From positions 1 to 53,236 of IMG/VR virus record IMGVR_UViG_3300030098_002282: a stretch of 53,236 bases of DNA. One strand, 5' to 3'. The stretch comes from a virus. The position numbers and the translations under genes were made by a program. How positions within the stretch are numbered: position 1 is the first letter of the stretch; every line of letters starts with the position of its first letter. Positions 1 through 27,891 of the stretch are shown piece by piece. The notes below the pieces were generated by a model. It searched no databases. It was given only the letters and a program-made list of their open reading frames with translations, and had not been told where the DNA came from.

Positions 1-152
1 CCAAATGATTCGTATCATACGGCGATGAAAGAGGCAAAAATGGCTTCTGCTCATAAATACTCTTTATTAGAAGAGAAGAAAATGCTTACACCGAATATGA
101 GCTTTGAAAATGGAAAGTTCTATCACAGTCATAATTCTTTTGATTTTAGATA
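1..152. repeat. Left copy of terminal direct repeat
   Basis: Bases 1-152 match 53085-53236 except at position 64 (t versus c) and position 75 (g versus a). Both differences fall in the coding frame of the E2-like gene and are synonymous (Leu and Glu codons). The repeat shows that the contig closes on itself, with a unique length of about 53,084 bp. The mismatches suggest a consensus from a mixed population rather than a perfect physical terminal repeat. Confidence 0.95.
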
Positions 153-9786: not shown

Positions 9787-11715
9787 TTATATAATTTCGT
9801 CCAATTCTTTTTCACCCTCTTTCTGACCTATCAAATGCCAAGCAAGTAAACCTGCTCCCATTGCAACAGGATGTAAAGCTAAGCCGGGTATCCTTTTTCC
9901 TGCAAACTTTAAAAAACTCTTTGGGTTTTCGAGAGCCTTTCGTTTAATATATCTTAAAGATTCCGTACTCATTCCTTTTTTTCTTACATAATGTTTAACA
10001 TCACCTCTTGTAAGTTTCTTTTCTTTCAACTCATTTAATCTATTATCTTGACCATAAAAAGGATTTGCTCGAGTCATATTACGAGTCATTTCTTTACCAC
10101 TTCTACCATCATAAGTTCTAAACTCTTCTTCAACTATAAAAGGAATGTTTCTTTGAAATCCAGAATGTCCACTCATTGGAAGGTCACTTAAATCACTAGT
10201 CACCATTCTTTGTGCTATTTTAGTTGCTCTGCTTCCGGGCTCTATAAAAGGTTTATAATCTACTGTAGCATTAATCCCACCTTCTAAATAACTATTTGTT
10301 ACTCTACCTATCCCACTTAACTGGAATTGACCACGACTACCTGCTCTAAATGCTCCCTGCTTTTTCATTTGATATGCTATTTTACGAGCTTCGTTTTGAG
10401 AGTATTGATTAGACATTTCTTTAAGCAAGAACTGTCCTCTTTCAGACCTTCTAGCATTTATAGACATTCCTTTATATTCATTCATATACTTGTTATATCT
10501 TCGCAAACCTTTAGGTGGTTTATCTGCTTCATTTGACCAGTTTTCACCATATTCTCTCAAGTCTCTCCATTTATATGTAAAAGCACCTCCTAGATTTAAA
10601 TTTTTTAATGCTAATTGAATTTCTTTCATACCAAAGTGTGGATTTTCATATGCTATTTGAGATGCATACCTACCCATCTTTTGAAAGACCCTTGAAGGTC
10701 CTCTTTTAATTCTCATATCATGCTGATGAACATTTCTTATTAAATTAATAGCAGTCTCGTCATTAAGCATCATACCTTTTTTAAGACCTAATCTATTTGT
10801 TAATTTATTAGAGTATTTATTAACATCATTTTCCCATTGTTGACCGCCAATACTTTTCATATAATCTTTAACATCACCCCATCTATATTGACCAGCGTAC
10901 TCATAACCTGCCATTTTCAATCTTTCATTAGACCATCTTCTATTTGCCCACATAGCGTGTGATTCGCTCTTTGCTATTTCGTGTCTCCATTTTCTATCAA
11001 ACTCTCCATATCTTTCGTATTTTCTTTTTGCTTTCTGTTTATCTAGTGTGAGTTGTGCGGTTCTTCTATAATGTTGTTCTTGATTTATCACACCTTGAGA
11101 CCTAGCTTTATCAAGTTGACCTAGTTCTGCATCTATATTGCTTATCCTACCATCAATTCCTAAATTGTTTCTTCTAGCAGTATCTCTTTTTAAAAACCAA
11201 AGTGACTCTTCTGGAGTTACATTCATACCGCCTTTCATATCTTTTTTGTACCATTTATAATAATCCATAGCTGTACGATTCTGACCGTTCTTTTTTAATT
11301 CATATTGAAGGTCCTCAAATTGAGTAGGATTTTTTAAATTTTTATATACTTTATTAGCATCATCCATAGATGAGTTTTGTATCGCCTGTAAAGCACCTTG
11401 GTCAAAACCAAATTGTTGAGCCTTACCTTTTATTGTACCAGTAAGGTTTCTTTTTATACTTGTTGCTTTATTACCAAGTGCTTCCTCTGTCTTAGTCATA
11501 TCTTTTAGAGGGTCTTGGTCATAGTAACCAGCACTAAAGTTTCTCATATTCATACCAGCCCAAGCCATTGCTGGCTTAGGTAAGGTCATTATACTTGAGC
11601 CAATTACTGCACCTAATGCACTGTTGCCCATTGCATCATCAGGGTCATCTGTTGCAACATAAGAAGCACCTCCCCCTATTAAAGCCCCCAGCATTCCGTG
11701 AGTACCGTATAGCAT
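9787..11715 (-). CDS. Putative internal virion protein (642 aa)
   Basis: Last gene of the late operon. The N-terminus has a small-residue, glycine-zipper-like stretch (GALIGGGASYVATDD, then LGAVIGSSIM) that could insert into a membrane. The remainder is basic and rich in Arg, Tyr and Asn, with many predicted helices. Its start overlaps the stop of the giant 3037-residue gene. Position and composition suggest an ejection protein that enters the host with the giant protein. No enzymatic motif is seen. Confidence 0.65.
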   Translation of the reverse strand: MLYGTHGMLGALIGGGASYVATDDPDDAMGNSALGAVIGSSIMTLPKPAMAWAGMNMRNFSAGYYDQDPLKDMTKTEEALGNKATSIKRNLTGTIKGKAQQFGFDQGALQAIQNSSMDDANKVYKNLKNPTQFEDLQYELKKNGQNRTAMDYYKWYKKDMKGGMNVTPEESLWFLKRDTARRNNLGIDGRISNIDAELGQLDKARSQGVINQEQHYRRTAQLTLDKQKAKRKYERYGEFDRKWRHEIAKSESHAMWANRRWSNERLKMAGYEYAGQYRWGDVKDYMKSIGGQQWENDVNKYSNKLTNRLGLKKGMMLNDETAINLIRNVHQHDMRIKRGPSRVFQKMGRYASQIAYENPHFGMKEIQLALKNLNLGGAFTYKWRDLREYGENWSNEADKPPKGLRRYNKYMNEYKGMSINARRSERGQFLLKEMSNQYSQNEARKIAYQMKKQGAFRAGSRGQFQLSGIGRVTNSYLEGGINATVDYKPFIEPGSRATKIAQRMVTSDLSDLPMSGHSGFQRNIPFIVEEEFRTYDGRSGKEMTRNMTRANPFYGQDNRLNELKEKKLTRGDVKHYVRKKGMSTESLRYIKRKALENPKSFLKFAGKRIPGLALHPVAMGAGLLAWHLIGQKEGEKELDEII

Positions 11716-14700
11716 TATGCTTCCTCAGTTCCTGCAAAGTAATTAGATGCTTTCATTCCCGGTGGTGTCCAAAACTCTGTACCTTTCTCTTCTTCTTTCT
11801 TTCTCTTGGTAGATATTCTTTTTGCACCTACTATTGGTAGTCCAGTTAATTTGTCTAATCCGTAGTATGGATTCTCAGTTAATCCTCCCGGTCCAACTAA
11901 GTCTCTTGCTAACCTACCAAATGGAAACATTGTCCAAGTATAATAATTAGCCATCTTTTCCCAATCATCATTGATAAGACCATTAAGTATTGGTCCTGTT
12001 AATCTAAATGATGGTGGTGTAATCAATTGTAACGGGGCTAATTTACCGGGATAAGCTCCAAAGAAAGCTCTGTCTCTTTCTTCTTCATTACCAAATAACC
12101 AATCACCTAAGTCTTGAAACCAAGCGTATGGTTGTGGCATTTGTGAGCCAAATAATGAGTACATAAACATAGAACCTAATGCTAATGATAAAGTATCTGC
12201 TATCATTAGTCTTTTAAACCTACCAAATTCAGGGCTTCCTTGACTTATACCTCTTAAAGCCGCCTCTCTAATTATAGTATTTCTATATCTTACACTATTC
12301 CAAGCCCATAATTGGAACCTAGATATCACTTTACCCATAGCAGTGCCAGCAAACATAGGTCTAAATGGTACAGAATACAAAAATTGTGTGGCTTTAACGC
12401 CTTTTTTACCCATTTCTATAAGGTAGGGGTGGTCTTTTGGCAGTGTTCTTCCACCTAATTTATCTCTAGCTTGTATATAATGAGCTATAAATGAGTCTCT
12501 ACGCAATGCTCGTTCAGGTAATGACATAAATTTCCCTGCAACATCCATCATACCTTTACCTAAATTATGTTTTTTCATTAAATCACGAAAAGAAATGTCA
12601 GGTAAGTCAGGGTCTTTCTTTACTGCTCTTCTAAAATCTTTTAAAAATGCTTGCCAATTAGCACCAGTTAATTGTGGGTTGGCACCAATCTCACGAATGA
12701 TAAACTCTTCAATGATGCCAAGCTCTCTTACCCACCTATTAACATCTTCCCAGCTCTTAAACTCTGGGTCAATAGTCTTTCTTAGATAGTCTAGTTTCTT
12801 TGCTTTAATAAAGTTATTAAATCCTGCATTAACAATAGTCATTTGACTACCACCTAAATAGTTACCGATACTTGATTTAGGATGTGCTAATAATGTAGCA
12901 AGTGCATACTTTGCTTCCATATTACCTAAGTTAATAACGGCTTGTGCACTAACTTTATCTAAGGATTTTAATTCAGGTGGCAACCCTTTACCCTTACCAA
13001 CTAGACCTAATTTTCTACCTATCTGGTCAAATCTTGTAGCCACTCTGTTGTCTGCTAATGAACCATATAATGTACCTTTGATTTTCATCTTATCATTATC
13101 AAACATTTCTTTAGGAATAATAGCAGGAAAGCCTAACGATTGTTGTGCGTACAACTTAAAGTAATTCATCCAACTTGTTCTTAAGTCTGTTGGCATATCC
13201 TTATGCTGTTTAGCAAACTCATTAATAGTTTCTCTTGATAATATTTGACCCAAGTTTCTATAAAATGTTTTTGTTATACTTTGAGTATAATCTAGGTACG
13301 CCTCAGGTGCTGTAGACCATCCTTCTATATGATTCTCTCTTGAGAACTGATTTCCTATTCTTTGTAGGTTATCAAACCATTTTATTTCTTCATTAGTTTT
13401 CTTACCTTGTTGCTTTTTTATTATAGCATCAGTTATATGCTCCCAAGTTTCATTAATAATATCTGCTTCAACAAAATCACCTGATAATTGTTTTGATTTC
13501 ATATACAACTTAGCAATCATTTGTTTCTTTTCTGCTACAGGTCTATTGCTTTGCCAAATAATCTCAATCTTTTTTGTTAAATCACCCATCATAATACCTT
13601 TCTCAAAATGTTTTGCAACATGAGGAAAGTATCCATAGATACCGGGTTTGTCTCCAACAGTTTTTAATTCACCAAGCATTCCTGTATCAAAGTTTATCTT
13701 TTTATTAGAAAGTTTTTCTGATAAACCCCCAAGTAACACCTGCCTTATAGGGTTTTTATCACCTGCCAGTCTTTCAGCTTCTCTTATTTGTCCCATCTGC
13801 ATACCAAGAATAATCTTTCTTTGCCCATCCATACCAAGTTTCTCTATTGGGAATGGTTTATTATTGACAAAGTGGTCAGTGACCCACTTAATCATTTTCT
13901 TTCTGGACACTACAGGTATTTCTGTGTTAACAATATTACCTTCAGCGTCAACTGTTGTGTAAAATTCTAACTTATTCCTCTTCTTCTCAACAAATTCTTT
14001 CCAAACTTTCTGGTCACCTACTAATTTCTGGTGATTCTCAAAGTTTTTTAATGCAAGTAATTGATGTATTTCTTCAACTAACTGTCGTGCAGGTTTTCTA
14101 ACACCACTAGTAAGAGTTAGTAATCTATTTTGAGTATTCTCCCAGTCTATTTTCTCAGACATTTCAGCAGTTCTTCTTTCATAGTTTCTAGCATACTCTT
14201 CAGTTAACTTATCTCCTGTTAATGCCCGTTCCCTTAATCGTCTAGGCATATAATCAGATTCAAATTTCATAGCGGCAAAATCCCATAAGTCTCTACCTAA
14301 TTCAGTAGTCATATATGGTTCACTTAAGTTACCCCATTCACGCTCTTCTCTTTGATTCTCCATAGTAGCAACTTCTTGGCTAAGATGAATATTTCTTTGT
14401 AGCTCACCCATCCATCCTTGAGCAGTCTTACCTTTACCTGTTACCCAGTTTCCATGTCTATCTTTATAAATAGTATCAACTGTGTTCCAATTTATCTCAT
14501 GTCTCATTATATCTCTATCAACTGCCTCTGGAAACATTCTATAAAATCTTTTAGCTAGTTTTGGAAACTCTCCTTCAACTTTAGCAAATGTCTTTTGGAA
14601 CCAAGTACCTTCTCTATGGTCTCTAAATATATTATTAACAACCTCCCAGTCCTCTAGAGTCATAGTGTTTATATCTTTGTTTATCATATCTCTTACAATA

Positions 14701-17700
14701 AGATGTAGATTTTCTCTAGTTTGTGGACCATAGTAATCCATATTAGATATAATCTCATTCATTACTTTCTTTGCTTTACTTGACACTATAACATCTTTAT
14801 GTTGTTCTAACTGTGAAAATGGAGCGTAATCCTCTAAATATTTCTGCGTTTTCTTAGAGTAATCATGTTGGTTTATAGCCAAACCTTCTGTTCTTTTACC
14901 TCCCTCATCAAACAAGGGTTGCTTTTTATTCTCAGCCTCCAGATTTTTTGTTATCTGTTTAGCAACCCTCGTATCTCTCCCGGAATCTTCGTACCTAAAT
15001 TGTTCGTACGCTTGCTCCATTAAATCAAGCTGTCGTTTGATTATATGGTCGCCTACTTCCTTGGATGCGAATCCCACTCTATTAAATTGTGTGTTGTGTA
15101 ACTGCCTTGACTTTGTATCTAAATACCTTTGTAAAGCCATATATGATTTATAACCATATTCTTTTTTACTATTATCAATTTTCTTTTTTGCATTTTGTAA
15201 TCTACCTACTATCTCTGGGTCACCTCTTTTCCAACTAGATATTAACATAGCGTCAAATAAATCACTCTCTGCTCTAGTCATCCCATCTTTATACTTTGCA
15301 ATAGCATCATCAAGCTGTCTCTGGTCCATTTCTCTAGTAGTAGTTTGACCCTCTATTGTTCTATCTAATTCAAGAATCATTCTCTTTGTCTTATCATCCA
15401 TCTCTAAATCTTTTAGAGGTTCAAGAGCGTCTCTTTCTTTGTCTTGTTTAGACTTTAATCTTTGTATAGCATCTACTACTTTAGCGTACTCTGCAAACTG
15501 TTCAGGGGGAATAACATCTTTATTCCAAACTTCTTTTAATAATCTAGCACTAGCCCAGTCTCCCATATCATTTGATAAAGAATCACCAGCTAGTTTAATT
15601 ATATTTTCTAGTATTTTCTTTCTAGCGTTTCTAGGAATTGCATCTACACCACCAGCTAATTCGATAATATCACCTTTGGTAATTTTATTATGTGCCTTTC
15701 CAAATAAAGTCCATTGTATTCTTCTTCCTATTTTTTTCTTTTCATGAAGACCAAATGTATTACCTTTTGCACCCATCTTTCTCATGGCTTTATCTACTCT
15801 ATCATTAACTCTAGGTAGTTCAGAAAATACATCAGGGCTTTCATGCATTCTCTTGTATTCATTAAAGAAATAGTCGGGATGCCTAGATAGTAATTCACCA
15901 AACCCTTCATTCCATATAAATTCTTTTCTACTATCTACATTAAATAAATCATATTTTTGAACTATTTCTAATGGTCTATTCTTAGGTATCGTCATACTAC
16001 CCCTACCAAGCAAACCCATTATCTCTTGGTAATCAGTGTTTGATAATGTTTCTTGAACATTCTTATACCAATTATCAAGCTTTGCTCTATCCATACGGTG
16101 TAATAAACTATCTGAAAAATCTAAATCTTTAGTTAAGTTGGCAACTTTTCCATTAAATGAAAGGTCAGTCCTTTCGTTTGGACCTTTTGGAACTTGTTTA
16201 ATTCTATTTATAGACTGAATAAAGTCAAATACATTATGAGCCTTACCAGTCTCTAAGTTCCTACCAAAAGATGCACTATTTATACCAGACATTATGCCTA
16301 CAAATGCTTTCTTTCTCTCTTGAGTTGTTAAAGCTTCATTATCTTTAGTCCATTTTCTACCATCTCTTGCACTATGATGTGTCTTCATCTTAAATAATGA
16401 ATCAAATATAGCATTAAAGAATACATCTGTACCTTTTAATCCAGCTTCATCCATAGGGTCAGATGCAAAAGCAACAGTAGCACGAGCTATTTTTCTAAAC
16501 TTCTTTAAACCTTCCTTGCTTGTAATAGGAGTAAGTTCATACTTTATATTTCCCCATCTATCTATTTCATAATAAGTATCTTTACCTTCAAATTCTAAGT
16601 GTGACCTTACTTGATTATAGGCGGCTAAAATAGAAGACCTATTTACAACAGATGGACCAAGCATATTCCTACCAACATGAGCTCCTGTACTTGCTTGATA
16701 CCTAAGCAATGGTGACCACCTTAATGATGGAGTTTTTATTCTATCTAGCAACTCATAGTCTTGAGAAGTTAACAACTCTTTCATATCTTTAGGTTTATTA
16801 TGAGCAATCTCAGTCAAACCAGTCTTTTTATTTTTTACATAGTACTCTTCTTTTTGTGAACCATAAGCCTCACGCCATTCTTTTTTAAATCCATTCTTTT
16901 CACCACCAAAAAAGATAGATGCTTTATCACCATCTAAATCGGCTCCTCCCAGTGCTTCCATAGTTCTTGGATGTAAGACACTACCAAATCCTTTTCTGCC
17001 CGTAAAGCCCTTAAATTGGAGCTTATGAGCCCCACTGAGTGAGTCCATAGGTACTCTTACTACTACTGCTTCTAATACATCTTCAAATCTTTTCTTAACT
17101 TCTTGGTTTAACCTTGGTTTTTGTAACTGTTCCCATATATAACCCAGTTTTAATGTAGCCCCATCGTCCATATGTATTTTTAAATCACGGAATCCTTCAT
17201 CAAGATAAAAGATACTATCATTCTCATTAAGCTCAGGTAATTTTTTCTGTAGATACTCATCGTAACCTGTCATTCTAGATGTTGCACTATTTCTCAACCT
17301 TGGTTTAACTATTTGAGAAAGTATATAGTTTCTCATAACGCTTTGTCTATAACTATCTCCAACTTTATGTAACAATGGAACAAGTGAATCTGGTTTTAAC
17401 TGAACTATTCTATCAAACACGCTTTGCCACTCCATAGCATCTAGTTTTAAACTGTGTGCATCTTGTGCTGACATCTCACCTTCAGATTGGAGCTCACCTA
17501 CTATCTGGTCATTGATTCTTAAAATTTTATTGTATGCTTTAGTAGCAAAGCTTTCGTGTGCTGGACTATTTATTAAGTCTAATAATTGTCTAATACCTAT
17601 ATCTTCTATATTACTAAGCAACTGTGCTTCAGTCTTAGTATCGCCCGGATTTTTTAATAATGTTTCTGCTAATGTGTTCTGTTCTTTTGTTCCATTAAAT

Positions 17701-20700
17701 GACTCAACACTTGCTCTTTCAAATATACCATCTATAACCCGTTGCTTTATTGGATTAAAGCCAAATGGTGTAAGATTAGATTGCATCTGTTTAGGAAGTC
17801 TTTGTGGTTTGATAAACTTATCACTTGTTATTTCTGATGCTACAACTTTTATATCTTTTACAGGTAATGTGTAACGATGCCTAGTATTCTGACCTGTTGG
17901 ACCAACCAATTTTATTCCTCTACCTGTCCATTCCCACTTATCCCATATATCTCTTTGACCATACTGCTTAGCAGATGATTCAGGTATTATCATTTCAATC
18001 TTTGCTCTTCTCATTGCCTCTGCTTGTGCTTCAGGAGCCGCCTTGAATTGATACTTACCAAGCAATGCTCCAAATTGAGCATCAGGTGAGACTATAAAAG
18101 ATTTATTTACACCACCAGATTTGTCACCATAAGGCAACCCTTGACCAGCATTTAAAGCGTCTACTATCTCAGGTAGTGCTATTATCTCACCATCCATTGT
18201 ATGCACATAATCTTCAGCCTTACTACCAGCGTGTGTTTTTTTATTAACATCTTTAGTTAATACATATCTTATACCCTCTGGTAATAACTGATGCCCAGTG
18301 GCTTCTGAAACAAATTGGTTTACATAATTAGGGTCAGAAGGTATACCATTAGTATGCCATATTTGAGACCTTTTATTATAAGCTTTTGCTGTACTTACAT
18401 TTAAGTTTTCTAGTGTTTCAAATCCTTTCCTACTAAATGGCAATCCATTTTGACTTAAATCGTATAATATATTATTTAAATAAGACCTATCAAATAGTCT
18501 TCCAGCTTGTGCCCTGTTTAATGTGTTGGCTCTTTGAAATTTAGACATAGAAGATTTTGTTGCAAAAGCATCCTGAAACAACTCTTTCTCTCTTTCATAT
18601 AACTTCACTGATTCAGGGTCTTTCTTTTTCATTGTTTCCAGAAGTTCTTTTACAACAGCATTAGGCTTTCTTCTCTTAGTTCCATCTAGGAATTTCATTC
18701 TAGACTGTAACTTTGGGTGTTCTTTTACAAAGTAAAGCCTTTCTGCATCACCCTTACCTCCAAGATACATATACCCAGACTCAGCCATTTGCTTTGTAAT
18801 AGTAGCCATAACATTATTATACTGGGTCTCAACTTCCTTTTCCATCCATTTATCAATAGCTTCTCTTTTAGCTTTCCCTTTTAACTCACTCCATTGTCCA
18901 TGTTCTGCTTCAAGTATTCCAGCTTTAGCCTCAACTTCTTTTATTAAATCCCTTCTCCAATCAGCGAAAGTTTGTTCCTGATAATACTTCCCATTAGCCT
19001 TCTTATTTGTTGTTATATCTTGGACTATTGCATAAACAGGCTCAGTTTTAGGGTCAATTTCAACACCATATCTTTCATAATATTCTCTTTGATATGCTTC
19101 TTCTATATTCTTTACAGGTTCTCTTAATTGCTTTGCGTTTCCTGCTAAATTAACAGCATCAGGTTCTAGATTTGGATTAAGAATATTTAATCTAACATCT
19201 GGGTTGTAATCAATTTCGATATCATCATCTTTAGTTTTTCTTAATCTTTCTTTTGCTGGATTCATATCCATAACAATAGATGCAACCTGAACAGGTTTAT
19301 TATGTATCCTAGCGTTACCCCATTTTACCCAGAATGACCACTCTGGGTCTTCAGGTGACTCGACAATATTCTTTTTAAATCTTTTATTAACCCACTTTAT
19401 CATATTGACCGCAGGATTTTCAGTAGAACCTGCTTGTATATTCTCACCTACAACTTGATTCCATTTTCTATTTATCAACCTCCAAGTATCTTCCATGGCA
19501 GTCTGTGGTTCAGGTGCTTCCTTCCACTGGTCTTCTAAAAATCGCTGTACATAATGCTTTGACTTGGTAAATAAAGCCTCATAACTTTGAGATGAATCAA
19601 TTAACTCAGGACTATTCTCACCATCAGTACCTTTTCCTTCTCTGCTTTCAGTAAGTTCTTCTTCTGGTTTTCTTATCCTCTCTACTGGCTCTCCTTCGTA
19701 TATCTCTTTAGCTTTTGTTTCTGCTTCTTGCATTTCTTTCATTCTACCAAGCTGGTCTCTTGCTAGTATATAACTTATTACACCACCTTGCTCTGCATCC
19801 CTAGTAGTTATTTCTTTAACAAGGTCTTTTGTTTTTGGGTCCATAGTTTCCCAACCCTCAACTAATTCAGGTGATGCAGTACCTCTTGCACCAGTTTCAG
19901 GGTCTTTGTATTGGGTTTTCATTTTATGGAGATGTTCTATAGCTCTCCTATTTTTTATATATTGCTCACCCTGACCAAAGAAAGCACCAAGTAGATAATC
20001 ATATATTTGTTCTTCAGTAGTAGCACCTCTAAGAGTAGCAGGCAATCCCATCATAAGGGAACCTGCAATACCTTTTAAAACTTTCTCATTTACCTGTTCA
20101 CTTGTTAAATCTTTTAACTTAGTTCCGGGTATAATAGGCTTAGCACCGGGTACCCTAATTAAATTACCTATAGCTCTAAAACCTGCACCTGCTATACCAC
20201 CACCTAAAGTAGCATCTGCTACTGCGTGTATACCTTCTTGCCAAGCAGATACACCTGATGCTATACCAAGATTAACTGCACCTTCCATCATATCTCCGGG
20301 TACAGTATTCATAAATTTCTCTACTGTATTAACAGCCTCGCCTTTCTTATTAATACCCTTTTTACTAAGACCTATTGCAGTTTTCTTTATACCACCAGTA
20401 GCCCATTTACCAACCATTAATGGGACAGAATGACCTCTAAGTTTCATTAAGTTAGTAGATAGCTTACTTGCCATACCTAGTTTAGATAGGACTCTTAAGC
20501 CCGGTACATACCCTATAAAGCCACCTAAATGACCAAGACTCCTTGCTATTCTTTCATAGCTAGTACGAGGTTGTTTATCTGCTTCTCCGTGGTCTATGTT
20601 TAGTGTGGTAAAACCTGCTATCCAGCCTTTACCTGCTTGAGACATCAAGCTACCAAAACTATTTTCCCCTAATGAAGTGTCCGGGGAAGACATTTTATAA

Positions 20701-20828
20701 TGCTCAGCGTGTTCTCTAATCAACTCAGATTGAGTATAATCGAACTGATTAGGGTCGCTTTTATATTGGTCTACTAGTTGAGCAGTAGTTTGCTCATCTA
20801 TGGTAGGTTCAAAACCGTACCTTACCAT
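11715..20828 (-). CDS. Giant virion protein with RNA-polymerase-like active-site motif (candidate virion RNAP)
   Basis: A 3037-residue protein, 17 percent of the genome. Around residues 1265-1310 it reads like the second catalytic double-psi beta-barrel of cellular RNA polymerases: R.PMDSL, a basic strand, HPRTMEALGGADLDGDKAS. Asp1297, Asp1299 and Asp1301 of ADLDGDK match the metal-binding NADFDGD site of RpoC and the DFDxDK form in crAss-like virion polymerases. About 370 residues earlier, a DGE (Asp879), a G.NKSF strand and LLGKYQFK (Lys925, Lys929) could be the first barrel. The C-terminal third is helical with hydrophobic segments (SLALGSMFMYSLFG), as in ejected proteins. The neighbours are internal virion proteins. 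The polymerase role is inferred from motifs only. Confidence 0.7.
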   Translation of the reverse strand: MVRYGFEPTIDEQTTAQLVDQYKSDPNQFDYTQSELIREHAEHYKMSSPDTSLGENSFGSLMSQAGKGWIAGFTTLNIDHGEADKQPRTSYERIARSLGHLGGFIGYVPGLRVLSKLGMASKLSTNLMKLRGHSVPLMVGKWATGGIKKTAIGLSKKGINKKGEAVNTVEKFMNTVPGDMMEGAVNLGIASGVSAWQEGIHAVADATLGGGIAGAGFRAIGNLIRVPGAKPIIPGTKLKDLTSEQVNEKVLKGIAGSLMMGLPATLRGATTEEQIYDYLLGAFFGQGEQYIKNRRAIEHLHKMKTQYKDPETGARGTASPELVEGWETMDPKTKDLVKEITTRDAEQGGVISYILARDQLGRMKEMQEAETKAKEIYEGEPVERIRKPEEELTESREGKGTDGENSPELIDSSQSYEALFTKSKHYVQRFLEDQWKEAPEPQTAMEDTWRLINRKWNQVVGENIQAGSTENPAVNMIKWVNKRFKKNIVESPEDPEWSFWVKWGNARIHNKPVQVASIVMDMNPAKERLRKTKDDDIEIDYNPDVRLNILNPNLEPDAVNLAGNAKQLREPVKNIEEAYQREYYERYGVEIDPKTEPVYAIVQDITTNKKANGKYYQEQTFADWRRDLIKEVEAKAGILEAEHGQWSELKGKAKREAIDKWMEKEVETQYNNVMATITKQMAESGYMYLGGKGDAERLYFVKEHPKLQSRMKFLDGTKRRKPNAVVKELLETMKKKDPESVKLYEREKELFQDAFATKSSMSKFQRANTLNRAQAGRLFDRSYLNNILYDLSQNGLPFSRKGFETLENLNVSTAKAYNKRSQIWHTNGIPSDPNYVNQFVSEATGHQLLPEGIRYVLTKDVNKKTHAGSKAEDYVHTMDGEIIALPEIVDALNAGQGLPYGDKSGGVNKSFIVSPDAQFGALLGKYQFKAAPEAQAEAMRRAKIEMIIPESSAKQYGQRDIWDKWEWTGRGIKLVGPTGQNTRHRYTLPVKDIKVVASEITSDKFIKPQRLPKQMQSNLTPFGFNPIKQRVIDGIFERASVESFNGTKEQNTLAETLLKNPGDTKTEAQLLSNIEDIGIRQLLDLINSPAHESFATKAYNKILRINDQIVGELQSEGEMSAQDAHSLKLDAMEWQSVFDRIVQLKPDSLVPLLHKVGDSYRQSVMRNYILSQIVKPRLRNSATSRMTGYDEYLQKKLPELNENDSIFYLDEGFRDLKIHMDDGATLKLGYIWEQLQKPRLNQEVKKRFEDVLEAVVVRVPMDSLSGAHKLQFKGFTGRKGFGSVLHPRTMEALGGADLDGDKASIFFGGEKNGFKKEWREAYGSQKEEYYVKNKKTGLTEIAHNKPKDMKELLTSQDYELLDRIKTPSLRWSPLLRYQASTGAHVGRNMLGPSVVNRSSILAAYNQVRSHLEFEGKDTYYEIDRWGNIKYELTPITSKEGLKKFRKIARATVAFASDPMDEAGLKGTDVFFNAIFDSLFKMKTHHSARDGRKWTKDNEALTTQERKKAFVGIMSGINSASFGRNLETGKAHNVFDFIQSINRIKQVPKGPNERTDLSFNGKVANLTKDLDFSDSLLHRMDRAKLDNWYKNVQETLSNTDYQEIMGLLGRGSMTIPKNRPLEIVQKYDLFNVDSRKEFIWNEGFGELLSRHPDYFFNEYKRMHESPDVFSELPRVNDRVDKAMRKMGAKGNTFGLHEKKKIGRRIQWTLFGKAHNKITKGDIIELAGGVDAIPRNARKKILENIIKLAGDSLSNDMGDWASARLLKEVWNKDVIPPEQFAEYAKVVDAIQRLKSKQDKERDALEPLKDLEMDDKTKRMILELDRTIEGQTTTREMDQRQLDDAIAKYKDGMTRAESDLFDAMLISSWKRGDPEIVGRLQNAKKKIDNSKKEYGYKSYMALQRYLDTKSRQLHNTQFNRVGFASKEVGDHIIKRQLDLMEQAYEQFRYEDSGRDTRVAKQITKNLEAENKKQPLFDEGGKRTEGLAINQHDYSKKTQKYLEDYAPFSQLEQHKDVIVSSKAKKVMNEIISNMDYYGPQTRENLHLIVRDMINKDINTMTLEDWEVVNNIFRDHREGTWFQKTFAKVEGEFPKLAKRFYRMFPEAVDRDIMRHEINWNTVDTIYKDRHGNWVTGKGKTAQGWMGELQRNIHLSQEVATMENQREEREWGNLSEPYMTTELGRDLWDFAAMKFESDYMPRRLRERALTGDKLTEEYARNYERRTAEMSEKIDWENTQNRLLTLTSGVRKPARQLVEEIHQLLALKNFENHQKLVGDQKVWKEFVEKKRNKLEFYTTVDAEGNIVNTEIPVVSRKKMIKWVTDHFVNNKPFPIEKLGMDGQRKIILGMQMGQIREAERLAGDKNPIRQVLLGGLSEKLSNKKINFDTGMLGELKTVGDKPGIYGYFPHVAKHFEKGIMMGDLTKKIEIIWQSNRPVAEKKQMIAKLYMKSKQLSGDFVEADIINETWEHITDAIIKKQQGKKTNEEIKWFDNLQRIGNQFSRENHIEGWSTAPEAYLDYTQSITKTFYRNLGQILSRETINEFAKQHKDMPTDLRTSWMNYFKLYAQQSLGFPAIIPKEMFDNDKMKIKGTLYGSLADNRVATRFDQIGRKLGLVGKGKGLPPELKSLDKVSAQAVINLGNMEAKYALATLLAHPKSSIGNYLGGSQMTIVNAGFNNFIKAKKLDYLRKTIDPEFKSWEDVNRWVRELGIIEEFIIREIGANPQLTGANWQAFLKDFRRAVKKDPDLPDISFRDLMKKHNLGKGMMDVAGKFMSLPERALRRDSFIAHYIQARDKLGGRTLPKDHPYLIEMGKKGVKATQFLYSVPFRPMFAGTAMGKVISRFQLWAWNSVRYRNTIIREAALRGISQGSPEFGRFKRLMIADTLSLALGSMFMYSLFGSQMPQPYAWFQDLGDWLFGNEEERDRAFFGAYPGKLAPLQLITPPSFRLTGPILNGLINDDWEKMANYYTWTMFPFGRLARDLVGPGGLTENPYYGLDKLTGLPIVGAKRISTKRKKEEEKGTEFWTPPGMKASNYFAGTEEA

Positions 20829-20832
20829 ATCT

Positions 20833-22149
20833 TTAGTCGTTTAAAGCGGCGTCTAGTAAAGAACCTGCTCCATAAGCAAGAGCACCTAAACCAGTTCCAA
20901 CCCAATGCTTACCTGCTCCAGCCTTGCCAGCTAGTTTTAAAAGCTGTGCGGCTCTAGGACCATATTTTGCTATCAATGAAGGACCTCCAATACCACCTGC
21001 TATTTCACCTAGTATTCTATAGTCCTCTCCACCAATAGCCTCAGTTACAGAACCAAGAAGCTTTCCTCCTCCCATTGAACCAAGAAGACCAACACCAATT
21101 CCTTTAGCCGTATTTAAAGCCCCCTTTTTTCCTGCTTCAATTTGTCCTTTTTTAAATTCATCACGAAGCCTATCTTCTTCAACCTGCAATTTTTCATTTC
21201 TAGCTCTTGAAAATTTACTTCTTTCATTTATCATCTTTTTCTTTTCAGCATCTATTGCAGTTATTCGCTTTTGTTTAGCTTTAAGATTGTTTTGTTCTGT
21301 CTTATTTAGATTACCTTTTTTATTTAAAGCTCCTATTTCTTTCTTTAACTTGGCTCTTTCTGAGGAAAGCTTTTTCTGGGCTTCTCTAAAGCTCCTATCT
21401 TTACCATAGAGCTCACGAAGTTCCTTGCCTTCATCGCCTTTAATAAATTTTTTGTATGCCGCTTGTCCTTTCTGCGTTGCATATCTTTTTCCTGCTTGAA
21501 GACCTTTATAACCAAGGTACCCAGTTCCTACTAATGCAGGACCTAATACACCAGTAGCAGACTTACCCTGTGCTTTCCTTGCTTCCATCCAATCAGGAAC
21601 CCAAGCTTCATTTTTTTGACCCGGTACATATCCTAAAGTCATAAGCCTCTGCCTAAGGTTATCATCAGTTATATTTTTATACCAATCATGAAAGTTTTCT
21701 CCACCTGTTTCTTTTATCTTAGGAACTACTTTCCATATATCATCAGTACCCATTTCTGTCATTCTTCTTTCTATGGCACTAACTATCTCCATGTCTCTTT
21801 CATTGGTTTTGTTCTTGAAAAAATCTTGTATTTGTTGTGGAGTAGTATCTCTACCAAATGCTCTCCTCATTTCCCTAGCTTTTCTTTTACCCTTAGAAAG
21901 CTCATCATAATGCTGTTTCCAAGATTTACTAGAACCTACTTGCATATGACCATCTTGAAAACTATCATAAAAATCTGTGGATATCTTACCCATAGCGTTT
22001 GCATTAGCATTTATTTTATCAAGGAAAGCCTGTTCCCTGTCAGCTTGTTTAATCTCTTGAGCTCTTTGCATAGTTTCACTTAGTTGTGAAAACATAGAGT
22101 TTCCACCACCTTGAAAAGCCATTCCTCTACCACCTTGGTATATTGCCAT
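20833..22149 (-). CDS. Putative internal virion/ejection protein (438 aa)
   Basis: A 438-residue protein whose central 230-340 region is strongly charged and helical, a probable long coiled coil (KKLSSERAKLKKEIGALNK). A Gly/Ala-rich hydrophobic C-terminus follows (GIGVGLLGSMGGGKLLG and more) that could span a membrane. This composition is typical of podovirus core or ejection proteins, though no family match is evident. It lies directly upstream of the giant gene, with four bases between them. Confidence 0.6.
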   Translation of the reverse strand: MAIYQGGRGMAFQGGGNSMFSQLSETMQRAQEIKQADREQAFLDKINANANAMGKISTDFYDSFQDGHMQVGSSKSWKQHYDELSKGKRKAREMRRAFGRDTTPQQIQDFFKNKTNERDMEIVSAIERRMTEMGTDDIWKVVPKIKETGGENFHDWYKNITDDNLRQRLMTLGYVPGQKNEAWVPDWMEARKAQGKSATGVLGPALVGTGYLGYKGLQAGKRYATQKGQAAYKKFIKGDEGKELRELYGKDRSFREAQKKLSSERAKLKKEIGALNKKGNLNKTEQNNLKAKQKRITAIDAEKKKMINERSKFSRARNEKLQVEEDRLRDEFKKGQIEAGKKGALNTAKGIGVGLLGSMGGGKLLGSVTEAIGGEDYRILGEIAGGIGGPSLIAKYGPRAAQLLKLAGKAGAGKHWVGTGLGALAYGAGSLLDAALND

Positions 22150-22171: not shown

Positions 22172-22702
22172 TTACTTTGGAAAGAATCCTTTAGCCAGAA
22201 GTCCGATACCACCCTGCATCATAGCCCCTCTATTAGCGGCTTTATCAGCTTCTACATTAGCCATTGATGTATTTAAGTCACTTTGCATAGCCCCTGCTTG
22301 TTGTAACATAGCTCCTTGTTGTCCTAAGTAACCAGCACCTAATTTTTGTTGATTCATAAATGCTTGTAATCCTTGAGTACCTGCACCCATCATATTTTTA
22401 TACGCTTGGTTATTGGTTGCTTGTTGTAATAATCCTGAGCCACCCATACCTTGCTGAGCCGCCATTCTTTGAGCTTGCATTCCTCCAGCCGCAGTTGCAT
22501 CAGCCGCCGCAGTTTGTAATAAATTTCTTTGATTAGTATTTATACCACTATTAAAATTCATTGAAGCATCGGCAAGATTACCGAATTGACTCCCCAATGC
22601 GTTTAAGCCAGAAGTATACTGACCCATGCCCTTATTAATCATACTATTCATTTTATCTTGATTGGGATTACCTGCTATAAAATCTATTATACCACCTAAC
22701 AT
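22172..22702 (-). CDS. Ala/Gly/Gln/Met-rich internal virion protein
   Basis: A 176-residue low-complexity protein dominated by Ala, Gly, Gln, Met and Asn (for example GMQAQRMAAQQGMGGSG). The N-terminus (MLGGIIDFIAGNP) and the C-terminus (GIGLLAKGFF) are hydrophobic. Small internal core proteins of short-tailed phages share this composition and are injected with the DNA. It belongs to the ejection-protein set 9787-22702. Confidence 0.65.
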   Translation of the reverse strand: MLGGIIDFIAGNPNQDKMNSMINKGMGQYTSGLNALGSQFGNLADASMNFNSGINTNQRNLLQTAAADATAAGGMQAQRMAAQQGMGGSGLLQQATNNQAYKNMMGAGTQGLQAFMNQQKLGAGYLGQQGAMLQQAGAMQSDLNTSMANVEADKAANRGAMMQGGIGLLAKGFFPK

Positions 22703-22704
22703 AA

Positions 22705-22935
22705 CTACCTCAAATTAAATGTAGATGAATCTGACCTAATCCATCCATCTTTGTGTTTAAACTCAACATAATGTTTACCATCTTCTTTAATAACTCTATA
22801 AGTATTTAACTGAGCTTCAGAGTTTTTAGCAGATGAAGACTCCCTGTCTCCTTTGATAGACTGCTCTAACTTATTAACTCTTTCATCTAAATCTTCAAGT
22901 TCCATTTTTATTGTAGGGTCGTCTACTCTACTCAT
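22705..22935 (-). CDS. Hypothetical protein (76 aa)
   Basis: A small protein with an N-terminal coiled-coil segment (IKMELEDLDERVNKLEQSIKG), a polar linker and a short beta-rich end (YRVIKEDGKHYVEFKHKDGW). Its start overlaps the end of the nozzle gene. Given its place between nozzle and ejection genes it may be a minor tail component, but no motif identifies it. Confidence 0.65.
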   Translation of the reverse strand: MSRVDDPTIKMELEDLDERVNKLEQSIKGDRESSSAKNSEAQLNTYRVIKEDGKHYVEFKHKDGWIRSDSSTFNLR

Positions 22936-25900
22936 ACTTTACTACTCCTCGCTTTAATAGGTCTTAAGTGAACTCCTATAGACTCTAAAGTCCTTTGTCC
23001 ATTATCATCCACAACCTGTACCTGTAGAGACTTAGACTTTCTATCACTCGAAGATACCCGATTAGAAGTTAATGTTTGGAAAGAACTATTACTAGCATTT
23101 TTATACTTAGTTACAAGACCTGAACTACCCTCAGTATGAATCTCAGAAAAAGACTTATCGTAAGTATCAAAACCAGCAGTGATTTTCTTTGATTGAAACT
23201 CCCAAGCTTTTCTAGTAGAACTAGTCCCTATTTGCATTAATTTTCCGTCTGATGCAATTATCTCTCCAAACTTACCTTGAGTAATAGACTTTACTTTATT
23301 AACAAAAGTCCAGAAGTCCCACCTTCTGGTCATCACACTATATACCCAAGCGTATGATGAATTGCTAACTTCAAATATTACCATTAAGGCTTTTCTTTCT
23401 CCATCAAATGCTAACATAGGTGGAGAGGTTTCAAGAGATGTGCTTATACTATCCCAAGTAAAGTTTGTTAAATCTGTATTGTCTGAGCTATATATAGGGG
23501 TGCTAATTATCTTAGAAGCTTTGCCATTGTGTAAATAAACTCCGTACTTATCTGCAAAAAACATTCCATAATCGGTTGCTATTATACTTTTTTGACTCAA
23601 TGCACCAGCACCTTCCATTTTGTCTATAATTGATAAGTTATTAGGGTTTATTGCATAGATATTTGACTCTGTAAAAGCATACAATATATTATTATACGAC
23701 TTTAATGCAGTAGGCTTGTCTTGTAATGCACAATATTCATTAGCCCAATTAAAGACACTAAACTTACCTGCTTTGCTTCTAAATATATAGTTGCCAACAT
23801 TAGTTATTTCTGGATTATTAGCATCTCCAACAAATAAATACCCAGCACATTGTTCTGATATTTTATATGACAACCAATTCGTCGTCATAGCTGGTGATAT
23901 ACCAGTTAAAGCTTCGTAAGAACCAAAGTTTTTTCCTTTTTGGTCTTTTACAACATATTCTACATAGCCATTACTACCACTAGACCAACCACTATTATCT
24001 AGAGACACAGATTCAACTAGTTGATAATCTAAATCAGGTTCAGTGGCACTTCCATCAAAAGCCTTACCTCTATATATATTTATATGAGACAACCTCGGTG
24101 ATACCTTATCAGGTAAGAGTCCAATAGTTATCTTATGACCATGTTTAAATGGATTGTTACTAGCATTAGAATACAAAGTTTCACCTAAACAACTTTCTTG
24201 ATACCCATCATAAAGCATAGATATCCTATAGAAGTTTTTATAGTAATGTGAGTTATCATCTTTATCAGTACCATCAGGTAATAAATTAGAGTTATCTTTC
24301 TCACCTGCTCCGTCAGCAATAGCAACAGTAATAGAACTTAATACATCTATCTTACTCCAACTAGCAGTTTCAGCAACATCCCCTACATCATCAAGGTAAA
24401 AGCAACTAAATGATAGACTTGTTGTTACTGCTATCCAATCAAAATCTGAAGCTGTATCGTTATAATTAAGTGTCTGAGATGGTCCTTTCCAATCGTTTAT
24501 ATTCTCACTAGGTGTATACTTTTTCCTTGATATAGAAGAGTTTAAAAAGACCCGTCCATCTAAATCATTTTGATTTAATTTGCTATTATTTAAAGTTAAT
24601 AAATCATAGAATATCACAGAGTCTTTTTCTGTACATACTATTCCCCTTGGCTGAAGTATTGTTGTATTAGGCATAAATGAATTAATACTTGACAAGCCAG
24701 TATATTGCCCACCATCACCGTACCACTGCATACTTAGTTCTTCACTTCCGTATGAACCTGAGATTGATACATCTATCTTAGTGTCAATATCAACACTTGA
24801 ATTGTTTAATGCAATTCTTTTTATACCTGCATATGAAGTACTGCTTTCAGGTTGCCAAGATTCGCTATCAGTGTAAACTTCGATATGGGCACCTAATGCA
24901 GTTGTCTTGGTATCTTGTTTTATAAATGGTCCTATTTGTTTATATCTATAAATCACGCCTTGACCATCACTATTACTAGAAGGGCTCTCAGTGTCATATG
25001 TATGCGAATAATCTTCATTTTCAAAAGTATTAAAAACCCAAGGTATAGCTACAGCAACTGTTTCAGAGCCTGATTTATTACTATATAAAAATAATCCTTT
25101 TGGATGTATTGCCTTCTTCAGTCTCCAATCTGGAGTATTACTTCCGTAAATCTCTTGCTGACTGTAACCTTCACCACCAGTTCCTTGACCGGGGTCTGAG
25201 GTGTTTTCATACCACCATTCATCGTGTAAATATCTAAACCAATAAGCATCTACTTCAGCGTTATTACTATTATCACTTGTTTGAAATGGTCCAGTTATAT
25301 TAGTAAACTCAATAGCAGTGTAACCAATATCTGGGAGACTACCGGGTGCACTTGTTATGTCAGTGCTTCTCCATAAATACTCTGTTTTATGATTACCTAT
25401 ACCAAATGATTTCTCTTCCCAAGAAGCGTCACTATCATAATAATTTGATGAAGAAGCTAGGACATAAACGAAACCATCAAGTACTAATACATCACTAAGC
25501 TTTACAGTATCATTCATAAATGGCGTAGCTAAAGTAGAACCTGAAGCACTTGTTAATTTATAGCTTCTATTACCACTCAAAGACATAGCTGTTCCACTAG
25601 CACCTATTGTATATTTTTTTAAATGATAGTCAGATACATTGTCATATAATACCCAAATATCAGTATTTGTTTCGTGGTCAAGATATATACCACAAATTGT
25701 TCCACCAACATTTAGACTGCTTTCTACTCCATCTGAACGATTGGCTTTTAATAACCAAGAACTTCCTTTAACATACCCAACTATTAATTGAGATGAGGAA
25801 GTTAAATCTATATTAGCATCTTCTGCATCATCACTACTAGGTGCAGGAAGACAAAACTCCTCAAAGGCAGGCAAAACTGATGTACTAACAGATATAGCAC

Positions 25901-26858
25901 CATTAGTTAATAGAAAAGTTTCACCCATATCTCTACCAAATTGTTTCACATTTGGATACCCCATATATAATGGTTCATTTTGTGGACCTATCCCTGCAAA
26001 AGTATCATCCCCTCTAGTAGCAAATGTAGGTTCATTTTTTACTGCATTTTGATAAGGTAAATAAGTTTGACTCGAAGGATAACTTTTAGCTTCTGCTTTT
26101 ACAGAATACACATCTTCAAGCATAGAAAATGCTTCTTGAGACTTGTCCCATCCTAATATATTATGTGCTCCATTTTTATTTATTCTAGTCATTTTATCAG
26201 CACTGTACTCTCGTATAGGAAATCCAGTAAAATTCCAATGTATATAACTACCTGCTTGCATAGCAGTATTTTGGTCTATTCCAGAAAAATAAAACTCTAA
26301 GCCATGCATATATGCTTTACCACTACCAAATTTTTCATTACTAGCATCGTGGCTTAGGACACTCGTGCTTCCATCATGAAGTTGGCAAACATAAGAACAA
26401 TAAGCGTCTACTTTAGCAGTACCTGATATAGCAGAATTATGAATACCTGCGGTTCCTGACCCATTATCTATTGTAAATTTCTTAACTGAATCACCCTCAG
26501 TTCCTGTAGTTATAGCGGTTACTCTACCTATGAATCCATTATTATTACTTGTTACGGAATTACTAGCTCCAGTTGCACCATCACCGCCATTTGAAGAGTA
26601 GATATAATCACCAACCCATATAGGCACACCTTCAGTTGAATCACTAAAAGTACCATCTCCTTCATCTTTTCTAAGTGTCACGGTTGAAGACCCACCTTGA
26701 AATTGAAGAAAGTATTGAGCGTCCCAATTCTTTATAATTACACCAAAAGTCTCATTAGTACCTGTTGCTGTAACTCGAACTTGGTAATCTATTTTTCTAG
26801 AACCTGTATATGTACCAGATAATTTTAAGTTGGCAGGATTAAAATTAGACTTAGGCAT
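22932..26858 (-). CDS. Tail nozzle-like beta-propeller protein (1308 aa)
   Basis: A large beta-rich protein. Its C-terminal third has repeated blades: an IIATDYGMFFADKYGVYLHN segment, an FDGERKALMVIF segment and WVYSVMTRRWDFWTF. These resemble the propeller of podovirus tail nozzle proteins (T7 gp12 / P22 gp10 type), in which each blade reports a value and displays it. The N-terminal 800 residues are Ser/Thr/Gly/Asp-rich and may carry extra receptor-binding or decoration domains, which makes it longer than most nozzles. It is coupled to the 26858 gene by a TAATG overlap. Confidence 0.75.
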   Translation of the reverse strand: MPKSNFNPANLKLSGTYTGSRKIDYQVRVTATGTNETFGVIIKNWDAQYFLQFQGGSSTVTLRKDEGDGTFSDSTEGVPIWVGDYIYSSNGGDGATGASNSVTSNNNGFIGRVTAITTGTEGDSVKKFTIDNGSGTAGIHNSAISGTAKVDAYCSYVCQLHDGSTSVLSHDASNEKFGSGKAYMHGLEFYFSGIDQNTAMQAGSYIHWNFTGFPIREYSADKMTRINKNGAHNILGWDKSQEAFSMLEDVYSVKAEAKSYPSSQTYLPYQNAVKNEPTFATRGDDTFAGIGPQNEPLYMGYPNVKQFGRDMGETFLLTNGAISVSTSVLPAFEEFCLPAPSSDDAEDANIDLTSSSQLIVGYVKGSSWLLKANRSDGVESSLNVGGTICGIYLDHETNTDIWVLYDNVSDYHLKKYTIGASGTAMSLSGNRSYKLTSASGSTLATPFMNDTVKLSDVLVLDGFVYVLASSSNYYDSDASWEEKSFGIGNHKTEYLWRSTDITSAPGSLPDIGYTAIEFTNITGPFQTSDNSNNAEVDAYWFRYLHDEWWYENTSDPGQGTGGEGYSQQEIYGSNTPDWRLKKAIHPKGLFLYSNKSGSETVAVAIPWVFNTFENEDYSHTYDTESPSSNSDGQGVIYRYKQIGPFIKQDTKTTALGAHIEVYTDSESWQPESSTSYAGIKRIALNNSSVDIDTKIDVSISGSYGSEELSMQWYGDGGQYTGLSSINSFMPNTTILQPRGIVCTEKDSVIFYDLLTLNNSKLNQNDLDGRVFLNSSISRKKYTPSENINDWKGPSQTLNYNDTASDFDWIAVTTSLSFSCFYLDDVGDVAETASWSKIDVLSSITVAIADGAGEKDNSNLLPDGTDKDDNSHYYKNFYRISMLYDGYQESCLGETLYSNASNNPFKHGHKITIGLLPDKVSPRLSHINIYRGKAFDGSATEPDLDYQLVESVSLDNSGWSSGSNGYVEYVVKDQKGKNFGSYEALTGISPAMTTNWLSYKISEQCAGYLFVGDANNPEITNVGNYIFRSKAGKFSVFNWANEYCALQDKPTALKSYNNILYAFTESNIYAINPNNLSIIDKMEGAGALSQKSIIATDYGMFFADKYGVYLHNGKASKIISTPIYSSDNTDLTNFTWDSISTSLETSPPMLAFDGERKALMVIFEVSNSSYAWVYSVMTRRWDFWTFVNKVKSITQGKFGEIIASDGKLMQIGTSSTRKAWEFQSKKITAGFDTYDKSFSEIHTEGSSGLVTKYKNASNSSFQTLTSNRVSSSDRKSKSLQVQVVDDNGQRTLESIGVHLRPIKARSSKV

Positions 26859-27118
26859 TAGCCACCTCCACCACCACCACCACCAGATGGTGCTTTATAT
26901 ACACCGACAGTAATAGGTCCTGCTCCAGTACTAGAGGAACTAAAACCACCTAAAGCAGTAGCATAATTTTCTGTTTTCCTACCTTTTAAAAATCCATCAC
27001 TTGCTATTGTTTCAATATCCTTAGAAAAATCAGCCGCATCTGCTGGTATATCTTTAGCATCTGGAGTAGCTACTATACCAGAGTTAAATTGTTTTATTTC
27101 TGCTACTTGTTTTGGCAT
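26858..27118 (-). CDS. N-terminal nozzle-type segment with poly-glycine tail
   Basis: An 86-residue protein that reads like the usual start of a nozzle protein (IKQFNSGIVATPDAKDIPA, then a DGFLKGRKT turn) but stops after eight consecutive glycines encoded by a GGT repeat. The next gene, the big propeller, begins at the overlapping TAATG. I infer that a single ancestral nozzle gene has been split. The poly-glycine end may act as a flexible linker. Confidence 0.7.
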   Translation of the reverse strand: MPKQVAEIKQFNSGIVATPDAKDIPADAADFSKDIETIASDGFLKGRKTENYATALGGFSSSSTGAGPITVGVYKAPSGGGGGGGG

Positions 27119-27891
27119 TAACCTATTATTAACTCCCCATCTACAACTGTTTTACCATCAATTATTGTACAAAGTTCCACATTAAAATTACCCTTATCAT
27201 AGAAGTTCACTATTGCAAATCCTAATTGCCAATTGTGTTGCCTTCCTCCTAACCATACATTTGCTTCTGAACTCATATCCTTTAAACAACCTATACTCCA
27301 AGCTGACTTTGGACCATCCATATGTGTGACTGAGGATTGTTGGAAATCATGATGGTGTCCATACATAACATTACAACCAAGTCGTAGCAAATGATTCCTA
27401 GTGTGGTTAATACCAGCAAAATGGTGACCGTGATAAAAATAAAGATGACCAATCTTAAGCATCTTCCCGATTGGATGAAATTTATAGCCACGCTGTTTAA
27501 GGCGTACTGCGTCTTTAAATAAATAGCCTTTAAGATAGGGATTCTCATCCACAAACCTATTAAGCCAGTCATCATGGTTTCCTTCAGTAATATGCCTTTC
27601 TTTAGTCCCTGCTTTATCAAGTGAAGCATCTATTAAATCCATTCCTGCATTTACTTGCTCAATTTCTTTATCCACGAAAGGTAACTGGTACTCCAATGGA
27701 GGTCTTTTCTTTTTTCTCCATTGCCAGTGGGATACACTTTCCCACTCGCCAGTATCCCCAAGGTCAACATAGATATCTGGTTTAACTTTCTCAATTGCCT
27801 TACAAACAACACTAATCGCTCTAGTATCGTGAAAAGGAAAATGTTTATCTGGCGTAACAATTGCACGCTTTAATTTGGTCCGTTTGCCCAA
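27118..27891 (-). CDS. Calcineurin-like metallophosphoesterase
   Basis: A 257-residue protein with all five metallophosphoesterase blocks in order: D15-K-H17, the GD in VDLGDTGEW, GNHDDW, the FYHGHH strand and GHHHD. These residues hold two metal ions. The substrate could be a phosphoester in nucleic acid, a nucleotide or a protein; homologues occur beside phage tail and lysis genes without clear substrates. It starts at 27891, overlapping the zinc-ribbon gene by 22 bases. Confidence 0.9.
   Translation of the reverse strand: MGKRTKLKRAIVTPDKHFPFHDTRAISVVCKAIEKVKPDIYVDLGDTGEWESVSHWQWRKKKRPPLEYQLPFVDKEIEQVNAGMDLIDASLDKAGTKERHITEGNHDDWLNRFVDENPYLKGYLFKDAVRLKQRGYKFHPIGKMLKIGHLYFYHGHHFAGINHTRNHLLRLGCNVMYGHHHDFQQSSVTHMDGPKSAWSIGCLKDMSSEANVWLGGRQHNWQLGFAIVNFYDKGNFNVELCTIIDGKTVVDGELIIG

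Follow-up and report, generated by a model that had tools for sequence, protein, structure and literature searches.

The giant gene and its genomic setting

The window, meaning the whole 53,236-nucleotide stretch of DNA that was analysed, from an uncultured bacterial virus, carries on its minus strand an open reading frame (11715–20828) that starts with ATG, ends at a single stop and encodes a protein of 3037 residues, as the first-pass annotation had described. The gene is attested by the reading frame and by about 100 relatives. These ~50-kb phages have a P22-type portal, which suggests a short tail, and carry the gene at the end of their late (structural) operon; both the late-strand position and the synteny are shared with three other genomes of 49–53 kb. 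Downstream follows the last gene of the late strand, a reading frame of 642 residues (9787–11715), while upstream lie genes for proteins of 438 (20833–22149) and 176 residues (22172–22702), in an order kept in close relatives, and for a late protein of 1308 residues (22932–26858) that is conserved through the phage family; all four are on the minus strand. No family convincingly matched these flanking genes and no ejection function could be recognised among them; the terms “virion protein” and “among ejection proteins”, previously applied to this locus, are to be read as presumptive.

The replication genes lie on the opposite strand, far from the giant-protein gene, and the genomes encode a primase-helicase. 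Searches with the PolA, PolB and PolIII-alpha families detected no DNA polymerase, in agreement with the earlier reading of the window; a DNA_pol_B_2 search was also empty, with a control that was likewise silent. The T7-type RNA polymerase family PF00940 matched neither the window nor 14 related records, nor did it match the control genomes. A simple k-mer count revealed no repeated early promoter motif, and tRNA and Rfam searches returned nothing. At the sequence level, placement of the phage in the order Crassvirales through shared capsid, portal and terminase genes found no support: 11 late-protein profiles compared with 21 late proteins of phi14:2 gave nothing at E ≤ 10, and the best matches of the terminase and portal were other phages.

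The predicted catalytic motif and the family of relatives

In the translation, RVPMDSL starts at residue 1258, HPRTMEALG at 1286 and GGADLDGDK at 1294, and these motifs, like D1297, D1299, D1301, K925 and K929, read letter for letter as first reported. The DxDxD pattern occurs once in the protein, as the predicted catalytic metal-binding motif DLDGD (residues 1297–1301; 16926–16940, minus strand), which aligns with D1361/D1363/D1365 of phi14:2 gp66. The bare pattern carries little weight, because composition-preserving shuffles yield it 0.62 times per protein; D[LFMI]DGD arises 0.01 times and GAD[LFMI]DGDK 0 times, and the long motif, together with the conserved context around DxDxD, is weighty evidence.

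The search for related loci returned nothing with the whole protein, two close relatives with part of it, and the family itself with a degenerate motif scan, the relatives being collected with the pattern GADxDGDK and found on about 100 metagenomic viral contigs at 26–76% identity. Since they were gathered by this pattern, the invariance of D1297, D1299, D1301 and K1302 in 67 relatives is partly by construction. Invariant in all 67 are also K925, R1258, P1260, E1328, R1376, R1387 and D1457, and likewise K954 and K1013. The first-pass annotation had placed both Lys925 and Lys929 in a possible first barrel; the former holds, whereas position 929 is not conserved, being histidine in 52 of the relatives and lysine in only 5.

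No family member was present among the isolate phages searched, and a motif scan of GTDB genomes gave nine matches, none with the RVP context of the family. The portal-related phages KPP25 and a Manatee Spring podovirus, considered as carriers of the same enzyme, showed no motif in the right context in the parts of their genomes that were covered. In BFVD, the top structural matches of the core were A0A516LW39 (TM 0.67, 25% identity over the core) and A0A516LAI4 (TM 0.62, 23%), two proteins that have no functional name, appear in no paper found and probably belong to the same family; further unnamed proteins and crAss polymerases came after them. The family was found described nowhere in the literature searched, and may still be listed among the 23 polymerase families in the supplement of PMC10770324. 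The protein represents a widespread family of giant polymerases with two barrels in one chain, which is new and divergent and whose members are most likely virion-borne.

The polymerase core

Residues 785–1970 (14919–18476, minus strand) were modelled with AlphaFold2 from 67 sequences, giving a pLDDT of 84.8 and a pTM of 0.81. Against the PDB, Foldseek found three matches with E < 0.001, namely 6vr4 (phi14:2 gp66), which was the best at 1.9e-7, and two QDE-1 entries. The Z values from VIA were 14.6 for QDE-1, 14.0 for maize RDR2, 11.6 for P23-45 gp64, 10.8 for gp66 and 8.8 for P23-45 gp96, below which they fell to Z < 6, with cellular polymerases and unrelated entries. The alignment with QDE-1 2j7n runs without interruption over both barrels (Z 14.3, rmsd 4.2 Å, 469 residues, model residues 1–789), as does that with 6vr4 (Z 10.8, 618 residues). 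The RpoC-type match proposed at first is thereby refined: the protein is predicted to be a two-barrel polymerase, with its nearest relatives in the QDE-1/crAss clade and not among RpoC proper.

The first barrel (DPBB-B, beta-subunit type) had been anticipated at about residues 875–935. It is present in the model, but the strands, the invariant lysines and the hhalign alignment to gp66 extend it to about residues 880–1017 (17778–18188, minus strand). It carries conserved basic residues, and the continuous alignments put the barrel where the solved 2j7n and 6vr4 enzymes have theirs. Its lysines are K925, K954 (consensus ESAAKQ) and K1013 (QRLPKQM), the last two of which hhalign pairs with gp66 K1065 and K1119, respectively. 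The second barrel (DPBB-A, beta'-subunit type; about residues 1180–1310, 16899–17291, minus strand) is supported by model strands and by hhalign of this block alone, and contains DxDxD in both the predicted fold and the alignment to gp66. As to whether ADLDGD might lie outside a double-psi barrel, or lack an adjacent second one, as the first-pass annotation had asked, the confident model places it within the second barrel and the alignment spans both.

Residues 1331–1345 (16794–16838, minus strand) mark a variable insertion site, which is empty in the window and holds 100–490 extra residues in some relatives; in one of them (L005) a split cpYpsA (SLOG) domain is inserted at the equivalent site. 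Two model helices follow the second barrel (residues 1373–1414, SP..R...S..A..GR..LG; 16587–16712, minus strand), in which R1376, G1386, R1387 and L1390 are invariant, and these are a candidate bridge helix, assigned by order only. The helices in this region come in the right order and the structural alignment reaches model residue 789, with no accompanying sequence signal.

Independently of the model, the comparison of sequence profiles points in the same direction over both barrels. Against the crAss profile, hhalign gave 54.7 for the full comparison (shuffled maximum 21.1), 39.9 for the upstream half alone (20.2) and 31.5 for the second barrel alone (15.6), so that both halves pair with crAss gp66 well above shuffled controls; the part downstream of the second barrel taken alone, where the bridge helix and trigger loop would lie, gave no homology signal. 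A tblastn search with 296 residues around the motif found as its sole matches crAss proteins annotated as “putative RNA polymerase” (E 3e-3). The single protein gave nothing useful against Pfam, PHROGs or, with phmmer, PDB sequences, and the A2 profile gave only chance matches against PDB sequences.

The terminal parts

The core is flanked by an N-terminal part (residues 1–784; 18477–20828, minus strand), with a conserved block at about residues 50–300 in the conservation profile of 44 long relatives, and by a mostly helical C-terminal part (residues 1935–3037; 11718–15026, minus strand). About 1070 residues of the latter are conserved, and in the same 44 relatives residues 2550–3000 are as conserved as the barrels. 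It is a candidate packaging or ejection domain whose structural matches are weak: Foldseek gave no match with E < 0.7, and VIA aligned it with the T7 core protein 9jyy at Z 4.5 over 248 residues, with other phage core proteins among the weak matches. For a relationship to T7 gp16 the structural hint is too weak to count, and the profile alignment (23.6) falls below the shuffled maximum (28.1). A tape-measure fusion like that of P23-45 gp96 was considered; the core matches gp96 at Z 8.8, the C-terminal matches are weak and the portal is P22-like.

Proposed role and alternatives

The protein is probably a giant virion-borne RNA polymerase with a predicted two-barrel fold, injected to transcribe early genes; packaging and injection we infer from the gene position, the size and the gp66 and gp96 precedents. 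Residues ~785–1970 would form a DNA-dependent RNA polymerase with two barrels in one chain, belonging to the crAss gp66/QDE-1 clade; its first barrel would contribute the lysines K954 and K1013, together with K925, and its second the catalytic aspartates D1297/D1299/D1301. Expressed late as part of the structural operon, the protein would be packed into the head by means of its N- and C-terminal parts and ejected ahead of or together with the DNA. It would then transcribe the opposite-strand early genes at a time when neither a phage-made polymerase nor a redirected host one is yet at hand. A bolder version, speculative and rather doubtful, would place the polymerase covalently in the ejection channel, with the C-terminal part as a T7-gp16-like ejectosome component and the enzyme where the channel opens inwards, transcribing the first genes and pulling the genome in by transcription.

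An active two-barrel RNA polymerase that is not injected, and instead works late in infection, within the cell as P23-45 gp64 does, or makes replication primers, with the extra domains serving regulation, appears unlikely. The fold matches gp64, a non-virion enzyme, no less well than gp66 (Z 11.6 vs. 10.8), and the genomes have a primase-helicase and no detectable DNA polymerase; however, the late structural strand carries the gene at its end, while the genes for replication are distant and on the opposite strand, and its huge conserved N- and C-terminal parts would be needless for a solitary enzyme, the solved gp64 having only about 600 residues. Less probable still is a structural or ejection protein of polymerase descent that has lost catalysis, a reading suited to a giant late-operon protein of predicted activity; against it, the metal-binding aspartates, K954, K1013 and many nearby residues are invariant down to 26% identity, and the invariance of the lysines, unlike that of the aspartates, is independent of how the relatives were collected. 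Very improbable is a PolD-like two-barrel DNA polymerase supplying the missing replicative enzyme: PolD has the two barrels too (PMC10770324) and the PolA, PolB and PolIII-alpha searches found no other candidate, but it is RNA polymerases, those of the QDE-1/crAss clade, that the protein matches, the gene is in the late operon, and no exonuclease subunit was seen beside the single chain. A motif arisen by chance in a giant virion protein unrelated to polymerases, conceivable from the composition of the protein for bare DxDxD, is refuted by the fold, profile and conservation results.

An injected, virion-borne enzyme of this kind would extend the injected two-barrel polymerases to a diverse ~50-kb phage lineage whose late genes do not detectably resemble those of a crAss-like phage, and in a protein that Pfam and PHROGs fail to recognise. 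The family bears on how phages came by single-chain two-barrel polymerases, whether through repeated acquisition or as an ancient part of their make-up, and the wide sequence range of the relatives offers material for studying sigma-free promoter recognition and the coupling of transcription to DNA entry.

Comparison with known systems

The closest parallels are phi14:2 gp66 (6vr4) and crAss001 gp50, which are giant late proteins whose single chain holds the two barrels in the order seen here, with DxDxD in the second; gp66 is also the first Foldseek match, and its profile alignment is colinear over both barrels. The crAss001 gp50 protein was found in virions by mass spectrometry (PMC10172136), and the phi14:2 relative is annotated as a structural protein by MS/MS. 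The identity to these proteins is only about 10–18%, the motif is DLDGD here and DFDID there, and the N- and C-terminal parts differ. The phage lineages differ too: the genomes here are of 50 kb and not ~100 kb as in crAss phages, their late genes lack detectable sequence homology to phi14:2, and there is one giant protein here versus the three polymerase-associated giants of crAss001.

The RNA-silencing polymerases QDE-1, which is fungal, and plant RDR2 share the two-barrel core and give the highest structural Z (14.6 and 14.0), but these are cellular enzymes, not fused to virion domains, at 9–12% identity. P23-45 provides both a virion (gp96) and a non-virion (gp64) single-chain two-barrel enzyme, gp96 being a virion RNA polymerase that is active and forms part of a giant protein of 5002 residues (PMC10770324). 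In gp96 the polymerase lies on the N-terminal side of a tape measure in a long-tailed phage, whereas here the core is mid-protein in a phage with a P22-type portal, and the match is lower (Z 8.8). The virion RNA polymerase of the podovirus N4 is a giant injected enzyme that is T7-like and not two-barrel; by analogy, the protein described here would resemble it in its mode of working, while differing in fold class.

Fold of the Core

The open reading frame at 11715-20828 (minus strand) encodes a giant protein of 3037 residues, which the first-pass annotation had proposed as an injected RNA polymerase of the two-barrel class, and all of the motifs that it quoted were found where it had placed them. 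By chance (composition shuffles), bare DxDxD is expected 0.62 times in this protein and D[LFMI]DGD 0.01 times, and GADxDGDK did not occur in 2000 such shuffles. An AlphaFold2 model of the core, residues 785-1970, was built with 67 sequences and had a pLDDT of 84.8 and a pTM of 0.81. Foldseek against the PDB returned at E<0.001 solely the phi14:2 virion polymerase gp66 and two structures of the RNA-silencing polymerase QDE-1. VIA-align scored the core model at 14.6 with QDE-1, 14.0 with RDR2, 11.6 and 8.8 with the P23-45 polymerases gp64 and gp96, and 10.8 with gp66 (618 residues, 4.8 Å), unrelated rows being below 6. The QDE-1 2j7n alignment runs over model residues 1-789 without a break (469 residues, 4.2 Å), so that the model has both barrels, in the same relative place as in QDE-1.

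Sequence Relationship to the crAss Polymerases

The single giant protein had no match in Pfam, PHROG or PDB sequences; when its middle part was compared with phage records by tblastn, only crAss-like “putative RNA polymerase” genes came up (E 3e-3). Using hhalign, the family profile was then compared with a crAss polymerase profile (11 sequences, gp66 first); in gp66, D1361/D1363/D1365 sit in SDFDIDK. The whole core scored 54.7 (column-shuffled maximum 21.1), and two independent matches were obtained from the motif block of the second barrel alone (31.5; shuffled maximum 15.6) and from the segment upstream of it (39.9; 20.2), with no signal from the segment downstream. The upstream match pairs ESAAKQ (K954) with LDGVKVG of gp66 (K1065), and QRLPKQM (K1013) with GSQIQKNI (K1119). 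K954 and K1013 are invariant in 67/67 sequences, as is K925 in the 66 of 66 covering it, whereas K929 is not conserved; the first barrel had thus been roughly placed at about residues 875-935, but with the wrong second lysine.

Relatives and Domain Arrangement

Relatives were collected from viral contigs with a degenerate DNA pattern encoding GADxDGDK, which gave at least 119 stretches (a few records enter as more than one locus), at least about 100 of them sharing the upstream context R-V-P-M-D-S; the family is larger than these ~100 members among the matches listed. Their longest reading frames are ~2,400-3,600 residues, with a core identity of 26-76%. At the sensitivity of tblastn, isolate phages yielded no member, and a motif scan of GTDB genomes met none either. 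The GTDB scan did show ~1010-aa frames with GGADFDGDK and no RVPMDS context in genomes of rumen Clostridia and of one Bacteroidales (L138, L140-L146), possibly another family of single-chain two-barrel polymerases.

Some relatives have extra residues immediately after the second barrel. In loci L005 (3581-14344) and L023, a large insertion, absent in the window, lies right behind the catalytic motif block; in L005 the insertion contains a cpYpsA (SLOG) domain in split form (PF12694, E 1.6e-26), which places a domain of nucleotide-binding type within a polymerase.

Residues 2550-3000 are conserved to the same degree as the barrels. The C-terminal model is helical and of moderate confidence (pLDDT 71.7), and Foldseek found no match for it. 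The weak VIA rows included, at Z 2.7-4.5, T7 core proteins, a related core protein and a cyanophage pre-ejectosome, but a T7 gp16-relative profile aligned with this part no better than with shuffles. Hypothetically, it might serve in ejection.

Genome Context

The window is a complete IMG/VR record of 53,236 bases, and the genome itself may or may not be complete. Three more records of 49-53 kb (G005, G007, G008), read end to end, are syntenic with it and differ in start point, as expected of circularly permuted or circular genomes. One strand carries the JAB, ThiF, Sak4, primase-helicase, Gam-like and endonuclease VII genes, and the opposite strand the terminase, P22-type portal, capsid and tail genes, with the giant protein at or near the end. 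The earlier failure to find a DNA polymerase gene agrees with the searches for PolA, PolB and PolIII-alpha, whose models found nothing in these records while the controls responded; searches for DNA_pol_B_2 and a T7-type polymerase were also empty, though there the controls were silent too.

The adjoining JAB-protease-like (PF14464) and E1/ThiF-like (PF00899) genes (701-2339, plus strand), beside Sak4 and the primase-helicase, are kept in three other family genomes. The JAB gene has a weak PRTRC_A match, so the pair may form a conjugation cassette of PRTRC-like or ubiquitin-like type in a phage. Ahead of the JAB gene lies a fast-evolving gene without a family match (51741-53234 and 1-777, plus strand), which the record ends may cut, and there is no direct join between the frames at the two ends; relatives carry a 476-584 aa gene at the same place.

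Comparison with Known Virion Polymerases

Profiles of 11 late proteins were run against 21 late phi14:2 proteins without finding a homolog, and at the sequence level the phage is therefore not recognisable as a member of the Crassvirales. A metallophosphoesterase gene (phrog_221; 27118-27891, minus strand), conserved in the family, is found in the late operon, and the late block of phi14:2 likewise has one.

The crAss001 polymerase was found in particles (PMC10172136), and gp96 of P23-45 is an active virion polymerase within a giant virion protein (PMC10770324). By analogy with these and with gp66, the giant protein would probably be made late, packed into the particle and injected, and would then catalyse transcription of the early strand from early promoters. 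The giant proteins form a new and divergent single-chain two-barrel polymerase family, carried by uncultured phages of ~50 kb. Literature searches found no description of their lineage or domain arrangement; both appear new as far as the literature searched shows, in a kind of polymerase that is already known.
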